Source: Verrucomicrobia bacterium Ga0077533 (GTDB taxonomy: Bacteria > Verrucomicrobiota > Verrucomicrobiia > Opitutales > Opitutaceae). From it: a stretch of DNA of 64,000 nt. The notes beneath the pieces are model-generated. The model made no database searches. It was given only the letters and a program-made list of their open reading frames with translations, and was not told the origin of the DNA. Within the stretch, counting starts at the first letter, position 1. Each line of letters starts with the position of its first letter. The stretch is taken from assembly GCA_001464505.1 (NCBI GenBank), contig LNEH01000155.1, forward strand, positions 1-64,000, read 5' to 3'. Both the position numbers and the translations under genes were made by a program. Below are positions 2,941 through 26,456 of the stretch, one piece after another.

Positions 2941-3024
2941 GGCTGACTAAACACAAAGGTCGCGGAGAACGCGGATAAAAGCCGAAAGCGTCCGGCCTGC
3001 CCGCCATAGCCTTGGCGACGGCAG

Positions 3025-5457: not shown

Positions 5458-6951
5458 CTACTTCGTGGAGCGCTGGCGGTATTTGTCGTAGAGCTGCGTG
5501 TGGCGGCTGTGGAGCTGGATCGAGGCGCCGTCGATGAAGGCGAGCGACACCTGCGTGGGAATCTCCAGCGGGTCGCCGTCGGTCACGATCAACGTCGCGC
5601 GCTTGCCGACCTCGATCGAGCCAAGCTCGCCCCCGACGCCGAGAATCTGCGCCGGGTAGAGGGTGATGGCCTTCAGCGCCTCCCCGGCTGGCAGACCGAA
5701 GGCCGCGGCCATGGCCGCCTCGTAGGGCAGGTTGCGGAGGTCCATCGCCCCGTTGGCCGAGCCGGCGATGCAAAACCGCACGCCGGCGGTGTGCAACCGT
5801 CCCGCGTTCGAATAAACGTCGTCGTAACCATCATCGCGCCGCGCCGGCAGGTCAAAGGGGCTGCCGATGATCACGGGCACGTCCGCCGCCTTCAGGCGGT
5901 CGGCCAGACGCCAGGCGTCGCGTGCGCCCACCAGGATCAGTTTGAGCCCCTCCGCCCGCGCCCAGTCGAGCGCCGCGCTGATCTGGTGAAGGGAGTTTGC
6001 GTGGACAAAGACGGGCTGGTCGCCGCGCAGGGCCGGGCGCATGGCTTCCCACCGGAGGTCGGTCTCGGTCGGTCGGCCGCCGGCGGCGTCACGCGCCTGG
6101 GCGTAGGCGCGGGCGGTGGTGAACGCGTGGCGCAGCAACTTCAGCTGCTCATCGAATTTTTTCTGGCGATCGTCGGCCGCGACGGTGCCGCGACGGGTGG
6201 GCGCGGCCAGCTCGGGCCAGTAAACGTGGATGCCCACGGCGGCGCGCAGCGTCATGTCTTCCCAGGTCCAGCCGTCGAGCCGGAGGAGCGTGGACGTGCC
6301 GGCGATGAGGCCGGGCGCGGCCTGCGCCTCGCTTTGCGCGGCGGGAGTGGTATGCACGGTGAGCACGCCGTTGGCGCGGGTGACCGGGATCAGCTCGCTG
6401 TCGGGATTGACCGCGACCTGGGTCCGCGCGTTGGGATTGATCAGGCCGACTTCGGCCGTGTCGACGGTCGCGCGGACCGCGGCGATCTCCTCCAGCCCGA
6501 GAGTGGTGTTCGCCGAGAGAAAACCGGGATAGACCCGCCGGCCACTGACATCGATCACCTGCGTGCCGGCGGGCGTCTTCAGGCCGGTGCCGATCTGCGC
6601 GATCATGCCGCCGGCGAGCAGCACGTCGGTCTTTGGCAACACCGCGCCGCTGACGGTGTGAACCTCGCCGCCCTTGAGCAACACGGGCGCGGCCGGACGC
6701 TGGGCGGGCGTGACGGTCGAGGCAGCGGCGAGCGACGCCGAGAAGATCAGGGCGGCCGCAAGGTGGAGCGGCCTGCTCGTCCGTCGAAGCCTTGGCGAAG
6801 TCGGAACCCCAAGACGCGGGGTTTTTTGCGGGAGGGGGCAGCGCGTTGAGGACAACGCGCTCCACCTCGGGTGTGTTTGCAAAATCAGTTTGTCATTCTG
6901 AGCGCAGCGAAGAATCCACGGCATCGAACACTGCATCACGAGCGAAAGCAT
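5458..6951 (-). CDS. Amidohydrolase family protein (start uncertain, N-terminus repeat-derived)
   Basis: LLKGGEVHTVSGAVLPKTDVLLAGGMIAQIG...GRRVYPGFLSANTTLG...LGSIEVGKRATLIVTDGDPLE. Confidence 0.8.
   Translation of the reverse strand: MLSLVMQCSMPWILRCAQNDKLILQTHPRWSALSSTRCPLPQKTPRLGVPTSPRLRRTSRPLHLAAALIFSASLAAASTVTPAQRPAAPVLLKGGEVHTVSGAVLPKTDVLLAGGMIAQIGTGLKTPAGTQVIDVSGRRVYPGFLSANTTLGLEEIAAVRATVDTAEVGLINPNARTQVAVNPDSELIPVTRANGVLTVHTTPAAQSEAQAAPGLIAGTSTLLRLDGWTWEDMTLRAAVGIHVYWPELAAPTRRGTVAADDRQKKFDEQLKLLRHAFTTARAYAQARDAAGGRPTETDLRWEAMRPALRGDQPVFVHANSLHQISAALDWARAEGLKLILVGARDAWRLADRLKAADVPVIIGSPFDLPARRDDGYDDVYSNAGRLHTAGVRFCIAGSANGAMDLRNLPYEAAMAAAFGLPAGEALKAITLYPAQILGVGGELGSIEVGKRATLIVTDGDPLEIPTQVSLAFIDGASIQLHSRHTQLYDKYRQRSTK
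6762..6867. repeat. Composite interspersed element AGGTGGAGC..[GTCCGTCGAAGCCTTGGCGAAGTCGGA]..GCGCTCCACCT
   Basis: Inverted GGTGGAGC/GCTCCACC ends with a CCTTGGCGAAG core; overlaps amidohydrolase N-terminus. Confidence 0.75.
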
Positions 6952-6993: not shown

Positions 6994-9900
6994 TCATTGG
7001 TGACCTCCGTCGACGTGCGAGCAGGTGTGGACGTTGCCGCCGTTGTGGTAGATGGCGCGGAATTCGTCGTGATCGTCCGACTGCGCCATCGCGTAGGCCG
7101 GCTCCGCCGGCGGCCCGTCCCCGCCGCCGCCTCCGCCCCGAGCCAGGACTTTCTGCCGCTCGGCGAGGGCTTTTTGGAGGAGGGCCGCGCGCTCGGTGGC
7201 GGCGGCGGCCCGCAGGAGCTTGTCCTCGTCGCGGTCGAAGTAGCGGCGGCCGTCGATCCAAGTCTGGTTGGGCCGCGCCAAGGTCGAGAGCGGATTCGCA
7301 TTCCAAAGGACAAAGTCGGCATCCTTGCCCGGTTCGAGCGAACCCACGCGATCGTCGATCCGCAGCTGTTTCGCCGGGTTGAGGGTGACGAATTTCCAGG
7401 CCTCGGTCGGCGGGACCCCGCCGTATTTGACGGCCTTGGCCGCCTCGGTGTTGAGCCGGCGGGCGAGGTCGTCGCTGTCGGAATTGAAGGACACGACCAC
7501 GCCGGCGGCGTGCATCAGCGCGCCATTGTAGGGAATGGCGTCGATGACCTCGTATTTGAAGGCCCACCAGTCGGAGAACGACGAACCGCCCGCGCCGAGC
7601 CGGGCGATCTCGGGCGCGACCTTGTAGCCCTCGAGGATGTGCTGGAAGGTGGCGACCTTCAGTTGCAACTGCTCGGCCAGCCGGATGAAGGCGAGGATCT
7701 CATCCTGCCGGTAGGAATGGATGTGCACGATGCGCTCGCCGTTCAGGATTTCCAGCGCGGCCTCGAGCCGGAGGTCGCGGCGGGGTGGCAACAGCGTCCG
7801 GCCCTCGCGGTGGGCGGCCCAGGTGCTCCCGTATTCGCGGGCCCGGTTGAAGGTATCGAGCATGATTTCCGGCACGCCCATGCGGCTCATCGGATAACGG
7901 GTGCGCGGGCCGGTGGCGTTGGCGCGCACGACGTTTTCCCCGAGGGCGAACTTCACGCCGGGTTTCGCGCCGGCGAATTTCATTTCCTCGGCCCCCGCGC
8001 CCCACCGGAGCTTGATGACCTGGTTTTGTCCGCCCATCGCGTTGGCGGAGCCGTGCAGGATGTTGGCGGTGGTGAGGCCGCCCGCGAGCTGGCGGTAGAT
8101 GCCGATGTCGGTCGGATCAATGATGTCGGCCACGCGCACCTCGACGGTGACGGAGCTGGCGCCCTCGTTGACGCCGCGGCTCATGGCGGTATGCGAGTGG
8201 CAGTCGATCAGGCCGGCGGTCACGTGCTGGCCGGTCGCATCAATGACCACCGCGCCCGCCGGAGCGGTGAGGTTCCGGCCCACTTTCTCAATTTTCCCGC
8301 GCGTGATCAGGACATCGCCGCCCTCGATAATGCCAGCGGAGCCGCTGGTCCAGATGGTGCCGTTCCTGATCAGAACATGGTCCGGTTGGGCCGGAAGGTT
8401 TTTGCGGCCATAGGCCCCGGCCGGATAGACATCGGTGGTGGCGAGGTGTTTTTCCTCGGCGGCCGGCTTGGCGTTGGCGGCGGGCTCCGGTTTCACGGGC
8501 GCCGTGCGTTGGGCGGTCCAGCGCAGGGCGGTGCCGTCGGGCAGCTCGCCCGTGCCGGTGAGCAAGTCGCCCTTGCCGCCGGCCACAAGGCGCGCCGTGC
8601 CGCCGGTCGCGCTGAAAAGCTCGGCCGGCAGGTAGAGCAGCACGGTGTGCTTGTCGGGCAGGCTCGCGGCGATGTCCCTGTCGCCCGCTTTCGCCTTCAG
8701 GCGGTTCGGCTTGGCGCCATTGATGACGATCTCGCCGGGGCCCTGCGGGCCGCTCCAGGTGAATTTCCACGTGCCGCGCGCGTCCAGCCGCTGCCAGTCT
8801 TCCTGCTCGAAAGGCTCGCCGTCCACCCACAGGAGCTCGATGGCGGCGTCCTCGGATTTAAAGAGGTCGCCGTTCGCCACGACGACGTTGGCCGTCATCC
8901 CCTTTTCCAACGTGCCGTGCGTGGCAGCGACGCCGAGCAAGGCGGCGGGAGTGGTGGTCAGGGCGGCCAGCGCGCGATCGGCAGCGAGCCCGCGGGTCAC
9001 GGTCTTGCGCAGGCGCGGCCAGAACTCGGTCTCCGGTTTTTTCAGTTTCGCGCTGGTGAAGGCAACCGGCACGCCGACCTCGGCGAGACGCGCGGCGTTG
9101 GCGGGCGCCGTCTCCCATTTCTGCAGGTCCTGCAGCGACACCTCGAGCGCCTTGTCCGGCACCTCGACTTCAGGCGCGTCGGGAAAATCCAGCGCCAGCA
9201 CGACGGGGGTCTTCGCCTGGGCGAGCAGGTCGCGCACGCGGTATTCCGTGCCGACGCCCCGCAGGGCGATCCGCAGCTTGAACTCCTCGCCCAATTTCAA
9301 CACGCGCGCCACATCGAGTTCGTCCACCAGCTCAAACATCAGCAGCTGCTCGCCCCGGACCAACGGGCCGAGCGCGGCGAGCGAATCGTTGGTCTCGGGC
9401 CGCTCCCGACCCGCGCCGGACCCGGCGGCGTAGGCCGCCTGCGTGGCGGCATACCATTGCGCGTCGAGCAAGGTCTGGCGCACCAGCGCGACCGCGCCCA
9501 TGAGCGAAGTCGGGTAGGTGCGGTCAAAGAACGAGCCAAACTCAAAGGCGACCTCCTGGGCGGTATCGGGGCGGACGACGCCGGCATTGAAATTCGCGGC
9601 CCCGGTGCTCACCAGCGCGCTGCGGCCCCGGAAGATGCCGCGCGCGGGCGCGGAGTTGACCAGGGCGAAGCCAAGTCCGCGCAATTTTTCCGCCGCCTTG
9701 GGATCGGCGATGAGCGCGCGGGCGGCGGATCGCTCGGGCATGACGCGCGAGTTCCAGCCCGGCGCACCCGGCGGCGGCTCGGCGCGGACCGCCGCCGGTG
9801 GGCCGACGGGCGGGGCGTCGGGTGCGCGCGGCGGGACGGGTTTGAAAGACTCCGGCAGATAGAGCGCCGAGTTGCTCTCGATGAACCCGGCGTAAAGGGT

Positions 9901-10188
9901 GCGGCCGGTGACATCCCACACGCGGGCGTCGGCCGGAGCGATCACACCGGCACCGACCGACTCGATGACGCCGTCGCGCAGCACGAGCGTGCCCTGCTCG
10001 ATGACCTGGCCCGGGGCGGTGACGATGCGGCCGCCCACCAAGGCATGCACGCGCGGGCTGGTCTCACGCAGGCCCTCGACGGGCGCGGAGACGACACGAG
10101 AAGCCGCCGAGGCGGAAACCGGCAAAAGCGAGGCCAGACCAAGCAACAGGGCACCACGCGCAAACGGACCGAGGGGAAGTGATTTCAT
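6994..10188 (-). CDS. Large secreted amidohydrolase with two amidohydrolase-like modules
   Basis: ATG at 10188 gives signal peptide MKSLPLGPFARGALLLGLASLLPVSASA; second module VIDATGQHVTAGLIDCHSHTAMSRGVNE and C-terminal VGSLEPGKDADFVLWNANPLS. Confidence 0.85.
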   Translation of the reverse strand: MKSLPLGPFARGALLLGLASLLPVSASAASRVVSAPVEGLRETSPRVHALVGGRIVTAPGQVIEQGTLVLRDGVIESVGAGVIAPADARVWDVTGRTLYAGFIESNSALYLPESFKPVPPRAPDAPPVGPPAAVRAEPPPGAPGWNSRVMPERSAARALIADPKAAEKLRGLGFALVNSAPARGIFRGRSALVSTGAANFNAGVVRPDTAQEVAFEFGSFFDRTYPTSLMGAVALVRQTLLDAQWYAATQAAYAAGSGAGRERPETNDSLAALGPLVRGEQLLMFELVDELDVARVLKLGEEFKLRIALRGVGTEYRVRDLLAQAKTPVVLALDFPDAPEVEVPDKALEVSLQDLQKWETAPANAARLAEVGVPVAFTSAKLKKPETEFWPRLRKTVTRGLAADRALAALTTTPAALLGVAATHGTLEKGMTANVVVANGDLFKSEDAAIELLWVDGEPFEQEDWQRLDARGTWKFTWSGPQGPGEIVINGAKPNRLKAKAGDRDIAASLPDKHTVLLYLPAELFSATGGTARLVAGGKGDLLTGTGELPDGTALRWTAQRTAPVKPEPAANAKPAAEEKHLATTDVYPAGAYGRKNLPAQPDHVLIRNGTIWTSGSAGIIEGGDVLITRGKIEKVGRNLTAPAGAVVIDATGQHVTAGLIDCHSHTAMSRGVNEGASSVTVEVRVADIIDPTDIGIYRQLAGGLTTANILHGSANAMGGQNQVIKLRWGAGAEEMKFAGAKPGVKFALGENVVRANATGPRTRYPMSRMGVPEIMLDTFNRAREYGSTWAAHREGRTLLPPRRDLRLEAALEILNGERIVHIHSYRQDEILAFIRLAEQLQLKVATFQHILEGYKVAPEIARLGAGGSSFSDWWAFKYEVIDAIPYNGALMHAAGVVVSFNSDSDDLARRLNTEAAKAVKYGGVPPTEAWKFVTLNPAKQLRIDDRVGSLEPGKDADFVLWNANPLSTLARPNQTWIDGRRYFDRDEDKLLRAAAATERAALLQKALAERQKVLARGGGGGGDGPPAEPAYAMAQSDDHDEFRAIYHNGGNVHTCSHVDGGHQ

Positions 10189-10327
10189 AGGGGTAGAAAC
10201 CGGCGGAATTGAAATGCGCAGGTTGGGCAGCCAGCCAAACCGCCGCAATGCCAAAGCCGCAGTCAGCCGATGCATCCCGTCTCCCTGCCGCAGCTGCCGT
10301 CCCAACCCGATGGCCACCCGTGCCTAT

Positions 10328-10424: not shown

Positions 10425-12584
10425 TTAGAAGCGGCAGACGGCGGTCAAACCGATCTGGCGCGGGTCGGCGCGGGTCTCGTAGCGGGTCTCGATGTAATCG
10501 GGATCCTCGTTGCCAAAAAAATAGACGCGCTTGTCGTATTCCCCATCGAGGAGGTTTTTCACCCAGAGCGTGAGCGTCCACCGCTGCCAGGTGTAGCCCG
10601 CGCTGGCGTTGACGACGTGGAACGCCCGCCGCGCCTCGTTCTGGTTGTTCGAATCGAACTGCCGCGCGCGGCCCACGAGATCGGCGTTCGCAAAGAAGCC
10701 CGTCGCGGTGCCGTAGCGTGTCCCGAGCGTGTAACCGTAGTGCGGCGTGTTCGCGAGGTCGCGCCCGCCGCCGATGTTGCCGTTGACGAGCATGAACGGA
10801 TCCAGCGCGGAGCGCAGCAACGCCAGCGAGCCACGCACCGACCAGTCCTTGGTGAGCGCATAGGCCCCAGCAGCCTCGAGGCCGTAGACGTGCGAGCCGT
10901 GGCCGTTGTCGGTGAAGAAACGGTAATTGCCCCCGAAGCCGGCCGAGTCGCGCACCTGCGTGTCCTGCCGCCGCAGGTAGAAGGCGGTGAATTCACCGGT
11001 CAGACGCTGTCCCAGCCAGTGGCCGCGCAGACCGGTCTCACAGTTCCACAGCGTCTCGGTGCCGTAGGTCAGCGGGTCGGCCGTCGGATCGATGCGCGCA
11101 TCGACGTTGATGCCGCCGGCCTTGTAGCCGCGCGTGACGGACACGAAGACGAGCTCGTGCTCACTGACGTCGTGTTCGAGTGCGATCTTGCCGCCGGCGA
11201 GCGTGTCGTGGAACGACGGACGGATGACCACGACCGGATCAAAGGTGCCTGGGCTGGCGCGGAAGCGCGTCTTGGTGCCGTCGCCGTCCAGGTCGATCCG
11301 CTCCAGGCGCAGGCCGGCGACCAACCGCGTGCGCGGCGAAAATTCATGACTGACCTGGCCGAAGAGGGCGGTGTTGGCCGAGTGGTAGGTGGTCTTCAAG
11401 CCGCGGACATTGCCGGGATCCGTGTTGGTGTAGCGCGTGGTCTCGTCGATTGCGGAAAAAAAGGCGCCGAGAGTCCAGCGGTTGATCCAGCCGGCGGTGG
11501 CTGAGGTCTCGGAGTCGAGGCGCAGCTCCTCGTTCACCACCCAGCGCTGGCGGTGCAGATCACTGAAGCCCCGGTAGGAAGCCGCGGTCCAGTCGTCATC
11601 GTAGGCGTAGCGCGAACGGGTGCGGGAGCCACTGGTGACGGTCGTGAAGCGCACACCTTCCCAGCCGCGGTAGGTGCCGCGCAAACTGGCGGCCAGCGAC
11701 TGCTGCGTGTCGGCGCCGGGCTGGTCGCTGAAGGTGTGGCGGCCGTTGTTATCGAGGGCGAACTCGTCGTAGCCATTGGCGTAATCGGCCGCGAGGACGG
11801 CGGCTTCCCAGCGCCAAGTCGTGTTTGGGTTCCAGGTCAGTCGCAACCGCGCCGTGAATTCATCGCGGGCGTTCGTATCGCGGCTGAGCGTGAGGTTGCG
11901 GCGGAAGCCGTCGCTTTGGCTCTGTTGCACCGCGAAGCGCATCATCAGCTCCTCCGATTTTGCCGCCACCAGCGGCCCACCGACGGCGAAGCCACCGGTG
12001 AGGAGCGAGTCCCCGCCGACGGTCAGTTCAGAGCGGCCGGTCCAATAGGGCGTGGGGGCGTGGGTCACGAGCCGCACCACGCCGCCCGCGGCGTTGGCGC
12101 CGAACGCGCCGGCCTGCGGACCGCGCAGCACCTCGATTTGCTGAACATCGAAAGCGCCGCCAATCATGCCGAGACCGGTGAAGTCCAGATCATCGACCAG
12201 AAATCGCACCGCGGCGTCCGGCGTCTCGCCCTCGAACTGGGAATTTTCACCGATGCCGCGAATCTGCAGGTAGCGCGGACGCGAGGTGCCGCCGGTCCAC
12301 GTGAGATTGGGAATCTGGTCGACCAGGTCGCCAAAGTGCCGGACCGCGCCGGCGCGGAGTGCCGCCTCATCATAGACCGTGACGCTGGCCGGAATGCGGG
12401 CGAGCGGCGCGGCCCACAGATCCGCCGTGACGCGCAGGGGTTCGAGCACGACGGTCTCGGAGGTGGAACCCGGTCTGTCCGCCGTAGCCTTGGCGAAGGC
12501 GGAAGGCCGCGCTCCACCTTGGGTCTGGGCGCACAACGGCAGAGACGTGGCCAGGAGGAACAGGATTCTTGTCGGGAGTTGCAT
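10425..12584 (-). CDS. TonB-dependent receptor, candidate thiamine(-precursor) transporter
   Basis: 719 aa with signal peptide, plug VLRGPQAGAFGANAAGGVVRLVTH, C-terminal beta-barrel ending in aromatic F; TPP riboswitch upstream. Confidence 0.88.
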   Translation of the reverse strand: MQLPTRILFLLATSLPLCAQTQGGARPSAFAKATADRPGSTSETVVLEPLRVTADLWAAPLARIPASVTVYDEAALRAGAVRHFGDLVDQIPNLTWTGGTSRPRYLQIRGIGENSQFEGETPDAAVRFLVDDLDFTGLGMIGGAFDVQQIEVLRGPQAGAFGANAAGGVVRLVTHAPTPYWTGRSELTVGGDSLLTGGFAVGGPLVAAKSEELMMRFAVQQSQSDGFRRNLTLSRDTNARDEFTARLRLTWNPNTTWRWEAAVLAADYANGYDEFALDNNGRHTFSDQPGADTQQSLAASLRGTYRGWEGVRFTTVTSGSRTRSRYAYDDDWTAASYRGFSDLHRQRWVVNEELRLDSETSATAGWINRWTLGAFFSAIDETTRYTNTDPGNVRGLKTTYHSANTALFGQVSHEFSPRTRLVAGLRLERIDLDGDGTKTRFRASPGTFDPVVVIRPSFHDTLAGGKIALEHDVSEHELVFVSVTRGYKAGGINVDARIDPTADPLTYGTETLWNCETGLRGHWLGQRLTGEFTAFYLRRQDTQVRDSAGFGGNYRFFTDNGHGSHVYGLEAAGAYALTKDWSVRGSLALLRSALDPFMLVNGNIGGGRDLANTPHYGYTLGTRYGTATGFFANADLVGRARQFDSNNQNEARRAFHVVNASAGYTWQRWTLTLWVKNLLDGEYDKRVYFFGNEDPDYIETRYETRADPRQIGLTAVCRF
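12461..12521. repeat. Composite interspersed element inside TonB receptor 5' end
   Basis: AGGTGGAACCCGGTCTGTCCGCCGTAGCCTTGGCGAAGGCGGAAGGCCGCGCTCCACCTT; encodes GGARPSAFAKATADRPGST just after the signal peptide. Confidence 0.8.
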
Positions 12585-12654
12585 TGCGGATAAATGCCCG
12601 ACCCAAATCGGACTCCCGGGTCGGAATAAGAGGACGGCGGCGTGCGGCCCTGGC

Positions 12655-12748
12655 TTGTTTCCTTCGCCGGTATGATCCGTTTCAGGTTCAAAGGGTCGAA
12701 CGGCCGAGCGCGCCGCAATCTCAGTCCTTCGCGAAGGACACCCCTACG
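12655..12748 (-). promoter_or_regulatory. TPP (THI element) riboswitch
   Basis: Minus strand reads AGGGGTGTCCTTCGCGAAGGACTGAGATTGCGGCGCGC...GACCCTTTGAACCTGAAACGGATCATACCGGCGAAGGAAACA, containing CTGAGA and ACCCTTTGAACCTGA..GGATnATACCnGCGAAGGAA core. Confidence 0.92.
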
Positions 12749-13146: not shown

Positions 13147-14331
13147 CTACAAATGGATCTCCGCCGGCATCACGATGCCGGCGTTTTCTTTCACGGGCGC
13201 CGCCTTCAAGGGATAGCGGAATTGCTTCCCCTCGAAATTGCGGAAGACGACCTCGTCGTCGGTGATTTGCTCTACATAGTCGGGATTGACCGGCACCTTG
13301 CCACCGCCGCCGGGTGCATCGATGACGTATTGCGGGACCGCGTAGCCGGTCGTGTGGCCGCGGAGCGCCCGGATGATCTCGATGCCCTTGCGCACATCCA
13401 CCTTGAAGTGGGCGCCGCCGGTGATCAGGTCCATCTGGTAAATGTAGTAGGGCCGCACGCGCATCCGCAGCAGGCGATGCACGAGCGCCTTCATGACGTC
13501 CGCGTCGTCGTTCACTCCCCTGAGCAGCACGCTCTGGTTGCCGAGCGGCACGCCGGCGAACGACAGGCGTTCACACGCGTCCTTCAGCTCCTGCGTCGCC
13601 TCCTTCGGGTGGTTGACGTGGATGCTCATCCAGACCGGGCCGTGTTTCTTGAAAATCTCCGCGAGTTCCGGCGTGATGCGCTGCGGCAGGAACACCGGAA
13701 TGCGTGAGCCGATGCGGATGAACTCGACGTGCTTGATGGCGCGCAAGCGGCCAAGCAGGTGGTCGAGCTTCTTGTCGGAAAGCAGCAGCGGGTCGCCCCC
13801 CGAAAGGAGCACGTCGCGGATCCCGGGGTGCGCCTCGATGTAGCGGAGCGCCTGCTCGTATTCGGGATGAAAGTTGTAGTCCTGCGCGTTGCTCACGAGG
13901 CGGCTGCGGGTGCAGTAGCGGCAGTAGGCGGCGCAGCGATCAGTCACGAGAAACAGCACGCGGTCGGGATAGCGGTGAATGAGGCCGGGGACGGGCGAGT
14001 GTTCGTCCTCGCCGAGCGAGTCGAGCATCTCACCCGAGGAAACCACCATCTCATCGCCGCGCGGTATGACCTGCTTGCGGATCGGGCAGTGCGGGTCGTG
14101 GCGGTCGATCAGGTTGAAAAAATACGGCGTGATCGCCAGCGCCAGCTTCTCCTTGGCGAAGAGGCAGCCCGCCCGTTCCCCGGGGGTCAGCGTCAGGTGG
14201 CGCTCCAGCTGCTCAAGGGTCGTGAGCCGGTTCTTCAGCTGCCAGGTCCAGTCCTTCCAGTCCGACTCCGGCACGTGCGACCATAGCCCCTGCCCGGCGA
14301 ACCATGTGGAGCGGTCTTCGGTGTAGGGCAT
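13147..14331 (-). CDS. kamA: KamA family radical SAM protein (lysine 2,3-aminomutase-like)
   Basis: CAAYCRYCTRSRLV radical SAM CxxxCxxC motif; GDPLLLSD; HVNHPKE. Confidence 0.88.
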   Translation of the reverse strand: MPYTEDRSTWFAGQGLWSHVPESDWKDWTWQLKNRLTTLEQLERHLTLTPGERAGCLFAKEKLALAITPYFFNLIDRHDPHCPIRKQVIPRGDEMVVSSGEMLDSLGEDEHSPVPGLIHRYPDRVLFLVTDRCAAYCRYCTRSRLVSNAQDYNFHPEYEQALRYIEAHPGIRDVLLSGGDPLLLSDKKLDHLLGRLRAIKHVEFIRIGSRIPVFLPQRITPELAEIFKKHGPVWMSIHVNHPKEATQELKDACERLSFAGVPLGNQSVLLRGVNDDADVMKALVHRLLRMRVRPYYIYQMDLITGGAHFKVDVRKGIEIIRALRGHTTGYAVPQYVIDAPGGGGKVPVNPDYVEQITDDEVVFRNFEGKQFRYPLKAAPVKENAGIVMPAEIHL

Positions 14332-16783: not shown

Positions 16784-17626
16784 TTACAGACCGTAAAAGG
16801 CCCGGGCATTCCGGGTCGTGGCCAGGGCGAAGACCTCGTAACTGACGCCGAACATCCCGGTGCAGAACTCCGCCGTGTGCCGCAGGTAAGCCGGCTCGTT
16901 GGGTTTCCCCCGGTGTGGCATGGGCGTCAGGTATGGCGCGTCGGTCTCGATCATCAGCCGGTCCAGTCCCTGCGCCAGCGCGGCCGCGCGGATCGTCTCG
17001 GCCGTCTTGTAAGTGATGATGCCCGTGACCGACCCGCAGCCACCGCGCTTGGTCAGCTCCGCCATCTCGTCCGGCCCCTCCGTGAAGCAATGGAATACCA
17101 CCCGTCTCCACTCCACCCCGGAAGCGTCGATCACCTCCACGCACTCGGCAAAGGCCCCGCGCGAATGCACCACCACCGGGCAACCCAACCGCTTCGCCAG
17201 CCCGAGCTGCGCGGCAAACGCGGCCCGCTGCCACCCAAAAACCTCCGCCGCCGCGGCCGCCTCCTTCGGCAGATGAAAGCGGTCGAGGCCGATTTCGCCA
17301 AGCGCCACAGGGTGGAACGCGACCTCCGGGCGCATTTTATCCGTCGCTAGCGCGTCCGGAGGCCGCGCTCCACCCCAGAACTCCTCCAACTCCGCCACCC
17401 GCCCGGCCCAATCCACCCCGACACTGCACGGATGCAACCCGGCCGTGTAATGGACAAAGCCTGGGTTTTCCCGCGCCAGATTACGATAGAGCGTCCAGTC
17501 GTCGGGGTCAGTGCCGATGGTCACCATCGCCTCCAGTCCGGCCGACTTCGCCCGCGCCAAAACCGTCGGCAATTCGCCGCGCCGGGCGAATGAGTCGAGG
17601 TGCGTGTGCGTATCAATTAGTCCCAT
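16784..17626 (-). CDS. TatD family hydrolase
   Basis: MGLIDTHTHLDSF, GEIGLD, VVHSRGAF, HCFTEG, IETDAPYLTP. Confidence 0.92.
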   Translation of the reverse strand: MGLIDTHTHLDSFARRGELPTVLARAKSAGLEAMVTIGTDPDDWTLYRNLARENPGFVHYTAGLHPCSVGVDWAGRVAELEEFWGGARPPDALATDKMRPEVAFHPVALGEIGLDRFHLPKEAAAAAEVFGWQRAAFAAQLGLAKRLGCPVVVHSRGAFAECVEVIDASGVEWRRVVFHCFTEGPDEMAELTKRGGCGSVTGIITYKTAETIRAAALAQGLDRLMIETDAPYLTPMPHRGKPNEPAYLRHTAEFCTGMFGVSYEVFALATTRNARAFYGL

Positions 17627-17639
17627 GATATTTTCTTGG

Positions 17640-17707
17640 TCATTCTGAGCGCAGCAAAGGATCCACGTCGGCGATGACACTGGATTCTTCGCTGCGCTCA
17701 GAATGAC
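17640..17707. repeat. Interspersed palindromic repeat TCATTCTGAGCGCAGC...GCTGCGCTCAGAATGA
   Basis: ~26-bp near-perfect inverted arms; degenerate second copy at 6893-6960. Confidence 0.85.
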
Positions 17708-17892
17708 ACGCAAGGAAAGTAATGCACCGGCCTGGGTCAGTTTGCTGTAGGTCGGACTTTATGCCCGGCAATCGCACGCCCGCTGTCGGGGATAAACCCC
17801 GACCCACAAAAAGGGTCCGCCAAAAATCAGAAGCCAGCGCTTTCGCGCTGGCTTCCTTTGCACACACACACCGGGGTTTGCCTGGTGAAAGA

Positions 17893-20239: not shown

Positions 20240-23200
20240 CTACTTCCGAAAAAGCTGATCGAGCGCGCCGAGGCTCTTCAACGGCGCTCCCTTCCTGGCC
20301 GTGGTCGTCGGCGCCACCTTTGCCGTCGGCGCGACCGGCTCCTTGCTCCCCGCAGCCGGCAGACCCTGGAGCAGCCGCTCCAGCCGCACTGCCGACACCG
20401 GCTCCGCCGTGCCAAGTTCCTGGGCGAACAGGCTCACGCGGAATTCCTCCACCAGCCAGCGGAAGTCACCGGCTGCCCCCTGTAGCGGCGGTCTGCCTGT
20501 CGTCCATAGGCCTGGCGAAGGATGATGACCGCCGGTCCGGCGCTCATAGAGCGCCGCTACCGCTTTGGCAAACGGCGCCAGTTCCTTCGCCCGCGTGGCG
20601 TCCTTGGCCGCGTCGCGCTTCCACCGCTCCGCCCGCACCTGCATGCCGCGCAGGTAGCGCGGCAGGTGTTGCACCCGCTCAAACGGCATCCGCCGCAGGA
20701 AATCCGACGGCAGCAGCGCCGCGAGGTCGTCCGCCAGTCCGGGATACGGCGTCTGGTTCGTCTCCAGTGCGAGCCGCAGCGTGAAGGTTTCCTTCAGCCA
20801 ATCGGTGAGCTTCGGCACCAGCCCGCGCAAATCCTGCTTCGCCGCGGCCAGCTGCTGCGCGAACACCACCGCGTGCAATGGCGCCACCGGCCGCGCGCAC
20901 GCCCAGCACCGGATGGATTCCAACGCGTCCTGCTGCAACGCGTCAGGCGTCGTGAGTGTCACCGCCAGCGTCCCGAGCGTGCGCAGGGCATTGAGTTCCT
21001 TCTGCAGCCAGCCGAGATCGTGGCGCAATTGCGTCTCGAACAGTTTGCGCAGTCCCTCGCGCGTCGCCGCGGCCGCCTCCTCGGGCGTGGCGAACAGCCG
21101 CACGGCCACGCCCGCCGCCATCGCCTTCAGCCCGGGATGCGCCAGCACGGGCACGCCGTGGTGTTCGCTCACCGTGATCTTCTCCGGCAGGTCGCCAAAT
21201 TTCCATGCGTCAGCCGGCTCGCCCTCCCACTTGGCCCGTGCCGCCCGCCACGCGCTGTTGTCCCCCGACGCGGCCTGCCGGCTCACCGTGCGCGAACGGC
21301 GGTGCAGCTGCGTCTGGATCTCCGCCAGGTCGCGGCTGGCCCCGAGCACCTTGTTCGCGTTGTCCACCACCTCGATTCGCACCCGCAAATGATCGGGCAG
21401 CACGTGGTTGCTCCACAGCGCCGGATCGATCCGCACCCCCAGCCGCGGGGAGAGCAATTCCGCCAGCGCCGCGGCCAGCGTCGGCGGCTTCGCGCGGCCG
21501 CTGAGCAACCCCAGGTTTTTCGCCAGTTTCTGCGCCGTCTCGGCCAGCGGAATCAGGTCGCGCCGCTGTTCCTTCGGCAGCGCCTTGAGCATCAGCTCCA
21601 CCTTCTCCACCAGATGGCCCGGCACCGCCCAGTCGAGCACCGCGGGCGTCAGCGCCCCGGCCTCGGCGAGGCTCACGCGCACCGTCACGCCGTCGCTTTC
21701 CTGGCCAGGCTGATAGGCGTAGGCTAGGGGCAGCACGCGGTTGTCCACCGGCAGGGCCTCGGGAAAAGCCTCCGCGTCGTGCTCGGTTTCCACCGGCGGA
21801 CGCAGGCTGTCCTCCGTCATGAAAAGAAACTTCGGCTTCGTCGCCTGTTGGTGCCGCACAAAATCCACCAGCTCCCCCACGCTGCTAATGCCTTGGGGTG
21901 GAACCTGACCTCCGGGCAGGTTTTTTTCGGTGCCGGAACCCGGCAAGCCCGTCCGGCCTGCCAGCCGTAGCCTTGGCGAAGGCTGGAGCTCGGGCTCCAC
22001 CCTGGCAAATTCCTGCGCATAAAACCGATAGACCGCCTCGTCCAGGTTCAGGTAGCCGGCGCTGCGCGTGCGCGTGAGGATGGTCTCGGTCTGCTCGCGC
22101 AGCCGGCGGTTGTGCGCGAGGAAATCAAACGGCCACGTGATCGTGTCGTTGACCAGTCCCTCGCGGATGAAGATCTCGGTCGCGTGCCCCGGGTTGATCT
22201 TGCCGTAGCTGGCCGACCGCGTCTCCAGCTCGAGGTTGTAGAGCCGGCGGCGCTCCTTCACCAGCACGCGGCCGGCCTCGGCGCTCCAGAACGGCTCGCT
22301 GTGCGCCACGCGCAGCAAGTGCGCGCCGAGGTCGAGCACCCACGCCGGGTCGATGCGCGCGCAGGTGCGGGCGTAGACGCGCGCCGTCTCCATGATTTCC
22401 GCCGCCATGAGCCATTTCGCAACTTTGGCCTTCGGTGGTGGAACAGTTCCTCCGGACGCGCTTTTCTTACGTTCGATCCGTTCAAACAGCGCCGAGCCGG
22501 GAAAAAAGTCCACCCGGCGGTCATGCGCGGCATGATAGTCGCCCTCCTCCGTCCGCGTTGCGATGTTGCCGAGCAAGCCCGATAGAATGGAGCGATGCAC
22601 CGCCCGGTAGGCCGGCGTGGCCGGAGCGAACTTCACCTCCTCCCCTTTTTTCACGCCGTCATACACCGAGGTCCATGCGAACCCGGCGCGCTCCCGCAGG
22701 CTTTCCTCCAGCTGGGCATACACGTCGCGCCACTCCCGCATCCGCAGGAACGACAGGAAATGCGCCGTGCAGAACTTCCGCAGCTTGCCGAGCGTCATCC
22801 GCTCGAACTCGTCGTGGTAGATCTCCCAGATGGCCAGCAGCGTGAGAAAATCCGAGTCGGGATGCGTGAAGCGTTTGTGCGCCTTGTCCGCCTTCTCCTT
22901 CTGGTCCATCGGACGCTCGCGCGGATCCTGGATGCTCAGCGCCGCCGCGATGATCAGCACCTCGCGCAACGCCTTTTCGTTCCGCGCCTGCAGGATCATC
23001 CGCCCGACCGTCGGGTCCACCGGCAGGCGCGCCAGCTCACGGCCGAGGTCGGTCAACACGCCGGCATCGTCGATGGCGCCAAGCTCGTGCAGCAGCGCGT
23101 AACCGGCGCGAATGCCCTTGGCCGGCGGCGCGTTCAGGAAGGGAAACTCCTCGATGTCGCCCAGCCCGAACGCCTTCATGCGCAAAATGACGTCCGCCAG

Positions 23201-25097: not shown

Positions 25098-26456
25098 ATG
25101 AGCTCCCCGACTTTTTTCCCGCAGGACATCATCATCAAGAAACGCGACGGCGGCGCGCTGACCAAGGACGAGATCGAGTTTTTCGCCCGCGGCGTGTCCG
25201 ACGGCAAGTCGTTCGCCGATTACCAGGCCACCGCGCTGCTCATGGCCATCTTCTGGCGCGGCATGACCCCGCAGGAAACCGCGTGGCTCACCGACGCCAT
25301 GATGCGCTCGGGCGAGGTGATCGACCTGAGCGACCTGCCCGGCGCCAAGGTCGACAAACACTCCACCGGCGGCGTCGGCGACAAGGTCTCGCTCATCCTC
25401 GCCCCGCTCGCCGTCGCCTGCGGCCTCAAGGTCCCGATGATGAGCGGCCGCGGCCTCGGCCACACCGGCGGCACGCTCGACAAGCTCGAGGCCATCCCAG
25501 GCTTCAAGGTCAACCTGAGCGTGCCGGAGTTCCGCACCATCCTGCAGAAGGTCGGCTGCGCCATGATCGGCCAGACCCCGCAGGTCGTGCCCGCCGACCG
25601 CAAGCTCTACTCCCTGCGCGACGTCACCGGCACCGTCGAATGCATTCCGCTCATCTGCGCGAGCATCATGAGCAAGAAACTAGCCGAGGGCATCGACTCG
25701 CTCGTGCTCGACGTGAAGTTTGGCAAGGGCGCCTTCATGAAAAGGAAGGAGGACGCCCTGACCCTGGCCCGGGCCATGGTCGAGGTCGGCCGCGCCGGTG
25801 GCAAACCCGTCCGCGCGCTGCTCACCGCCATGAACCAACCGCTCGGCCGCGCGGCCGGCCACACCACTGAGGTCATTGAGTCCATCGAGTGCCTCAAGGG
25901 TCGCGGCCCCGCCGACCTCATGGAGGTCACCTACGCGCTCACCGGCCAGATGCTTCTGCTCGGCGGCAAGGCGAAGAACGAGGCCGATGCGCGCCAAAAA
26001 ATAGAGGCTGCCATCGCCAACGGTGCGGCGTTGAAAGTCTTCCGCGAGATGTGCGTCGCCCAAGGCGGCGACCCGAAGGTGATCGACGACTACAAGATAC
26101 TCCCGACCGCGAAAAAACTCCTGGAGGTGAAGGCCCCCGCCGGTGTGCAGGGCTTCGTCAGTGAAGTGGACGCGCTCAAGTGCGGCCACGCCATCATGGC
26201 GCTCGGCGGCGGCCGCGCCGCCGTGACCGACAAGGTCGACCACGCCGTCGGCATCGCCGATCTTATCAAAATCGGCGAGCCCGTCAGGGCCGGCGCCCGG
26301 CTCTGCACGCTGCACATCAACGACGACGCCAAGGGTGCCCGCGCCGACTTGTCCGCCATAGCCTCGGCGAAGGCGGAGGCCTTCATCCGCGAAGCCGTTA
26401 AATTCTCCGCCACGGCCCCGAAGCAGGAGCCGTTGATCCAGGACTTGATCCAGTAA
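25098..26456 (+). CDS. deoA: Thymidine phosphorylase
   Basis: PQDIIIKKRDGGALTKDEIEFF, KVDKHSTGGVGDKVSLILAPL, SGRGLGHTGGTLDKLEAIPGF. Confidence 0.95.
   Translation: MSSPTFFPQDIIIKKRDGGALTKDEIEFFARGVSDGKSFADYQATALLMAIFWRGMTPQETAWLTDAMMRSGEVIDLSDLPGAKVDKHSTGGVGDKVSLILAPLAVACGLKVPMMSGRGLGHTGGTLDKLEAIPGFKVNLSVPEFRTILQKVGCAMIGQTPQVVPADRKLYSLRDVTGTVECIPLICASIMSKKLAEGIDSLVLDVKFGKGAFMKRKEDALTLARAMVEVGRAGGKPVRALLTAMNQPLGRAAGHTTEVIESIECLKGRGPADLMEVTYALTGQMLLLGGKAKNEADARQKIEAAIANGAALKVFREMCVAQGGDPKVIDDYKILPTAKKLLEVKAPAGVQGFVSEVDALKCGHAIMALGGGRAAVTDKVDHAVGIADLIKIGEPVRAGARLCTLHINDDAKGARADLSAIASAKAEAFIREAVKFSATAPKQEPLIQDLIQ

Follow-up and report, generated by a model that had tools for sequence, protein, structure and literature searches.

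A TPP riboswitch-linked TonB-dependent receptor as a probable outer-membrane thiamine importer in Opitutaceae, with a candidate NadR-like thiamine kinase

The riboswitch and the receptor gene

The analysed stretch, referred to here as the window, comprises the first 64,000 nucleotides of contig LNEH01000155.1 from Verrucomicrobia bacterium Ga0077533, a member of Opitutaceae (Verrucomicrobiota) whose relatives come mostly from lakes, rivers and groundwater. On its reverse strand, a gene for a TonB-dependent receptor of 719 amino acids (10425-12584) lies directly behind a TPP riboswitch aptamer (THI element, RF00059; 12642-12755). A cmscan of the whole window scored the element at 12755-12642(-) with 64.7 bits against a gathering score of 54.3 (E = 2e-10), and the match covers the full model, positions 1-105, without truncation. 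A preliminary description of this DNA had placed a THI element about 70 nt upstream of the receptor with no gene between, and had named Infernal with Rfam RF00059 as the check; the score confirms the element, the ATG lies about 70 nt from the last paired strand and 57 nt from the end of the model, and no gene separates aptamer and receptor ORF. This is the only TPP riboswitch detected in the draft genome (2.93 Mb, 82.75% complete). The same description had seen no other thiamine gene, and in agreement with it searches of the window for ThiC, ThiE, ThiL, thiamine pyrophosphokinase (TPK), PnuC/T and a second TPP riboswitch returned none.

The receptor, which we assign to a type A ('RVTADLW') group, contains a Plug domain (PF07715, 50.7 bits) and a TonB barrel (PF00593, 103.2 bits), both above cut-off, while no NCBIfam equivalog scored above its cut-off. 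Pfam and the predicted model (pLDDT 71, barrel present, plug weak) agree with the plug and 22-strand barrel of an exported TonB-dependent receptor, the signal peptide being recognised by eye only. The closest solved structures in a fold search were FyuA, Fiu, OprC and PqqU, all generic receptor matches at about 14-16% identity. Since siderophore, copper and PQQ receptors come closest to it in sequence and fold, the ligand could be something else (a siderophore, B12 or similar) and the riboswitch captured by chance; we consider this extremely unlikely, given that type A receptors follow the riboswitch across Opitutaceae and at more distant loci, and that the occurrence of the receptor varies with the thiamine genes of the genome, as described below.

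A 25-nt dispersed repeat, GCCTTCGCCAAGGCTACGGCGGACA, occurs in four reverse-strand copies in the window (2998-3022, 12476-12500, 21959-21983 and 26350-26374; at most 3 mismatches, 0 copies expected by chance). The copy at 12476-12500 is in frame within the receptor gene, at about residues 28-37 (..SAFAKATADR..), directly after the signal peptide. Another apparent dispersed repeat gives rise to an ILxxAQNDx-type peptide that recurs at the 5' ends of the unrelated ORFs 5458-6951(-) and 16784-17713(-). The neighbouring genes run in the same direction as the receptor: downstream lies a 1107-aa ORF with two amidohydrolase-like halves (6994-10317(-)), and about 390 nt upstream of the riboswitch lies a KamA-family radical SAM aminomutase (13147-14331(-); TIGR00238, 368 bits) that scores slightly under the cut-off of the lysine 2,3-aminomutase equivalog.

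Riboswitch targets and the receptor leader across Opitutaceae

A TPP riboswitch was found in 141 of 150 genomes of the family, usually one in each. Classification of the downstream genes, covering nearly all riboswitch loci of these mostly draft assemblies, gave a type A receptor at 61 loci, a type B receptor at 33, thiC at 41 and thiM at 10, with five cut off by contig ends. All 13 of the more distant loci tested also had the riboswitch before a type A receptor. Control of the receptor by the riboswitch, as originally proposed, is supported by this conserved pairing. The two receptor types are only distantly related (a profile comparison aligned 252 barrel columns at 23% identity), and they interchange within genera: one genome of the window's own genus (G130) carries type B, and genera g4, g8, g39 and g45 contain both types.

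The stretch from the aptamer to the start codon contains a conserved leader block, CGGGAGTCCGATTTGGGTCGGGCAT, and in both receptor types conservation at the DNA level extends to codons 2-9 (CAACTCCCGACACGAATCCTC, encoding M-x-L-P-T-R-I-L). Nucleotide identity between types A and B was 57% over codons 2-9 and 36% over codons 10-25. The regulatory RNA may include the first nine codons, and two distantly related receptors may have been exchanged behind one conserved leader, a proposal that we grade below jointly with that for the kinase.

Two conserved leader boxes can pair with the coding start of the window's receptor, CTCCCGAC (12571-12578(-); codons 3-5 of M-Q-L-P-T-R-I-L), which the alignment identifies as the partner of both. 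The box CGGGAG (12613-12618(-)) can pair with CTCCCG in codons 3-5, enclosing the AUG (helix H2), while the box GGGTCGGG (12597-12604(-)) can pair either with coding CCCGAC (the alternative helix H1) or with the 5' arm of the hairpin at 12598-12624 discussed below. Across the alignment, 79% of H2 cells were paired and 6 of 7 pairs had changed in both partners, a number of double changes that 0 of 500 shuffles reached; slid controls paired less. The competing H1 (GTCGGG/CCCGAC) is less well supported: 76% of cells were paired, with little covariation above shuffles. RNAalifold alone on the leader predicted neither H1 nor H2 nor any other consensus helix around the start codon, and a swap test of leader/coding pairing energies was not significant, because the sequences involved are conserved and duplexfold permits other pairings. 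On account of these two results the support for the leader/coding pairing is moderate, and it is at that strength that we propose the start-codon-enclosing pairing CGGGAG/CTCCCG as the conserved element of the expression platform. The leader as a whole folded no better than shuffles (z = -0.34), and the window's own leader has three alternative folds no more than 4 kcal/mol apart.

The preliminary description had instead suggested a hairpin at 12598-12625 as a possible platform. The hairpin exists (CCGACCC-N13-GGGTCGG, 12598-12624(-)) and, at -13.1 kcal/mol, is the sole hairpin-plus-T-tail candidate in the window, but its tail is weak (GCATTTAT), the leader fold that contains it is not the one of minimum energy (-31.1 against -34.9 kcal/mol), and its 5' arm recurs in few relatives only (the window, L030, L034 and L179). 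As a conserved platform it was rejected on the last ground; the conserved element is a different one and extends into the coding sequence. That this hairpin acts as an intrinsic terminator and constitutes the platform here is unlikely: terminator-like hairpins do occur in 59 of 94 relatives, compared with 36 of 282 shuffles, but those of the relatives lie further upstream and have better U runs. A mixed mechanism of termination and translational control is possible. In an Opitutaceae subgroup (L047, L056, L077, L085, L088 and L089), another hairpin, GGATCTCAA...TTGAGATCC, stands directly before the ATG and replaces the CGGGAG leader.

From these patterns we infer both the direction of regulation and the mechanism of a platform centred on the start-codon-enclosing helix. 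At low TPP the leader would leave the receptor mRNA expressible; binding of TPP to the aptamer would lower expression, probably with the start codon occluded by the leader/coding-sequence hairpin, and in many relatives a terminator-like hairpin would lower it additionally. Counting against such regulation here, the riboswitch-linked transport operons of B. thetaiotaomicron showed no transcript change with thiamine (PMC5613172).

Thiamine gene content and the cargo of the receptor

We compared the thiamine genes of family members with and without the riboswitch-receptor pair. A PnuC/PnuT-family transporter was present in 90 of 94 riboswitch-receptor genomes and in 5 of 44 others (Fisher 3e-24), and ThiC was absent from 88 of the 94. 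The receptor/thiC state changes inside genera (g2, g7, g20, g31 and g48), and the pattern holds when each genus is sampled once (28 with receptor and PnuT but no ThiC; 11 with ThiC but neither receptor nor PnuT; 4 with all three; 2 others), so that shared descent alone is not enough to account for it. Among the seven genomes of the window's own genus, six of them about 99% complete, ThiL matches, PnuT and a NadR-like kinase were present, while profile searches detected no ThiC, ThiE or TPK. A ThiL of the genus lies at G000:C74:41514-42473, and the PnuT-like gene of the window's organism at L092:9163-9765; in this genus PnuT and the kinase occupy a locus apart from the receptor, with no TPP riboswitch detected there.

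Elsewhere the genes adjoin. PnuT and the kinase stand divergently beside the receptor in seven Opitutaceae (G008, G019, G048, G089, G101, G110 and G120). In Verrucomicrobiales, PnuT follows the riboswitch-receptor co-directionally at 8 loci and the kinase comes next at 7, so that riboswitch, type A receptor, PnuT and kinase share one strand in this order (L247, L248, L251, L252, L262, L264 and L265); at L259 PnuT is present with no kinase match. The PnuC/T tree was rejected as a guide to specificity, as its thiamine-linked clades sit on long branches with PnuC between them.

Control of the receptor in response to thiamine is supported by the conservation of the riboswitch-receptor pair, the co-occurrence with PnuT and the absence of ThiC, and the cargo, given in the preliminary description as thiamine or a precursor, can be narrowed. 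ThiE was absent from most receptor-carrying relatives tested and present mainly with ThiC or ThiM. The known route cannot join precursors without this enzyme, which makes intact thiamine or one of its phosphate esters the likely cargo. In favour of an import of HMP or a thiazole for later joining to thiamine, salvage of precursors can be under TPP riboswitch control, and in some relatives the riboswitch acts on thiM, those tested having ThiE. This joining enzyme is missing, however, from all seven own-genus genomes and from most of the receptor carriers tested, and we regard precursor import as very unlikely. Our reading of the ligand, which we infer from gene content, is that the receptor most likely imports intact thiamine or its phosphate ester. 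Taken as a whole, the locus very probably encodes an outer-membrane importer of thiamine that is repressed by TPP, the bacterium itself having no recognisable thiamine synthesis, as judged from its genes and regulatory RNA.

A NadR-like kinase and comparison with known systems

Imported thiamine has to be phosphorylated, and the catalytic domain of thiamine pyrophosphokinase (PF04263) was detected in 0 of 50 Opitutaceae and 0 of 10 further genomes, with 7 of 14 controls matching. ThiL was retained in 59 of these 60 genomes. The ten genomes of the Verrucomicrobiales set gave 0 ThiC, 0 TPK and 10 ThiL.

The gene after the window organism's PnuT-like gene (L092:8444-9037) encodes a 197-aa P-loop protein that matches PF13521 (AAA_28) with 117.5 bits; it has no N-terminal NMN adenylyltransferase domain and reaches 69.6 bits with TIGR01526, whose cut-off is 341. 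In a 50-genome panel, strong PF13521 matches were found in 37 of 37 receptor genomes and in 2 of 13 others. One of these two exceptions (G012) is similar to NadR kinases that serve nicotinamide riboside salvage; the match of the other (G034) gave no score with the kinase profile. All 43 kinases from receptor- or PnuT-linked loci carry a D-P-x(x)-R lid motif, although they come from three settings and form three separate clades, while the six NadR- or PnuC-linked kinases examined have a D-G-x-R or D-T-W-C-R lid. The predicted model of a relative's kinase (L265; pLDDT 86) had its best fold matches in NadR.

Both families are named after NAD salvage, the transporter scores above the TIGR01528 PnuC cut-off and the kinase's closest solved folds are NadR, so the pair might serve nicotinamide riboside salvage and have nothing to do with the receptor. 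To this we give a low probability: both genes lie in the TPP-riboswitch operon of Verrucomicrobiales and beside the riboswitch-receptor in the seven Opitutaceae, both follow the distribution of the receptor and tend to be missing where thiC is present, and separate NadR-type kinases with PnuC, bearing a different lid motif, exist in G003, G113 and G019. We propose instead that the NadR-like kinase is the missing thiamine kinase, giving thiamine monophosphate for ThiL. The broader reading, that a NadR-like ribosylnicotinamide-kinase fold was recruited in Verrucomicrobiota as a thiamine kinase for ThiL, replacing TPK within a receptor-PnuT-kinase module, and that the receptors were exchanged behind their common leader, is one joint claim that we hold to be somewhat probable.

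In the proposed pathway the receptor would use TonB energy to import intact thiamine, or its phosphates, through the outer membrane, a PnuT-type permease would take thiamine across the inner one, and the P-loop kinase would trap it as thiamine monophosphate for conversion to TPP by ThiL. One complete genome (G049; L101 / L271) has the riboswitch-receptor, PnuT and the kinase, with ThiL, ThiC, ThiE and TPK undetected. Because this genome carries the module without ThiL, the kinase-plus-ThiL route cannot be universal, and G049 would need pyrophosphokinase activity or another enzyme.

The arrangement recalls B. thetaiotaomicron, where TPP-riboswitch loci encode an outer-membrane TonB thiamine transporter (OMthi, BT2390) and pnuT-tnr3 (BT2396-BT2397), and most Bacteroidetes genomes, where OMthi, PnuT and Tnr3 form one operon (PMC5613172). 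Common to both systems are TPP riboswitches ahead of a TonB-dependent receptor and PnuT followed by a phosphorylating enzyme. In contrast to the Bacteroidetes system, a NadR-like kinase and ThiL here stand in place of Tnr3 (a TPK), most Opitutaceae lack synthesis, and the PnuT-kinase pair is usually at a separate locus. A putative TonB-dependent thiamine receptor, omr1, has also been described close to TPP riboswitches in gene clusters of SAR86 and Flavobacteriales; these papers call its specificity unclear (PMC10881298, PMC12442306) and report its transcription by Opitutales (PMC12442306), and we found in them no mention of an associated kinase or a two-receptor swap (PMC10881298, PMC12442306). 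With its TPP riboswitch and its genomic link to PnuT, the receptor is a further member of these known riboswitch-linked thiamine receptors (OMthi/Omr1). The kinase shares its P-loop fold and PF13521 with the ribosylnicotinamide kinase domain of NadR (PDB 6gyf, 1lw7 and 8x7f; TM 0.77-0.85 on the query), but differs in lacking the adenylyltransferase domain, in its D-P-x(x)-R rather than D-G-x-R lid and in its linkage to thiamine genes. We found neither the combination of receptor, PnuT, NadR-like kinase and ThiL nor the receptor swap behind a common leader in the open-licence papers searched.

The kinase is a concrete candidate for the step that is missing in thiamine auxotrophs of a group widespread in fresh and marine waters, the phosphorylation of thiamine. 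The two receptor types, A and B, together with the DPxR kinase could serve as gene markers for distinguishing organisms that consume B1 from those that produce it in metagenomes. Should the kinase prove specific for thiamine, many genes now annotated as PnuC plus a NadR-like kinase would have to be reinterpreted. The receptor swap behind the conserved leader may provide a test case of a riboswitch that keeps its role while the gene is replaced.

At four loci of some relatives (L099, L106, L276 and L280) we observed a separate PnuC adjoining a full-length NadR or a NadR-type kinase, an arrangement of nicotinamide riboside salvage that stands alongside, or instead of, the thiamine module.
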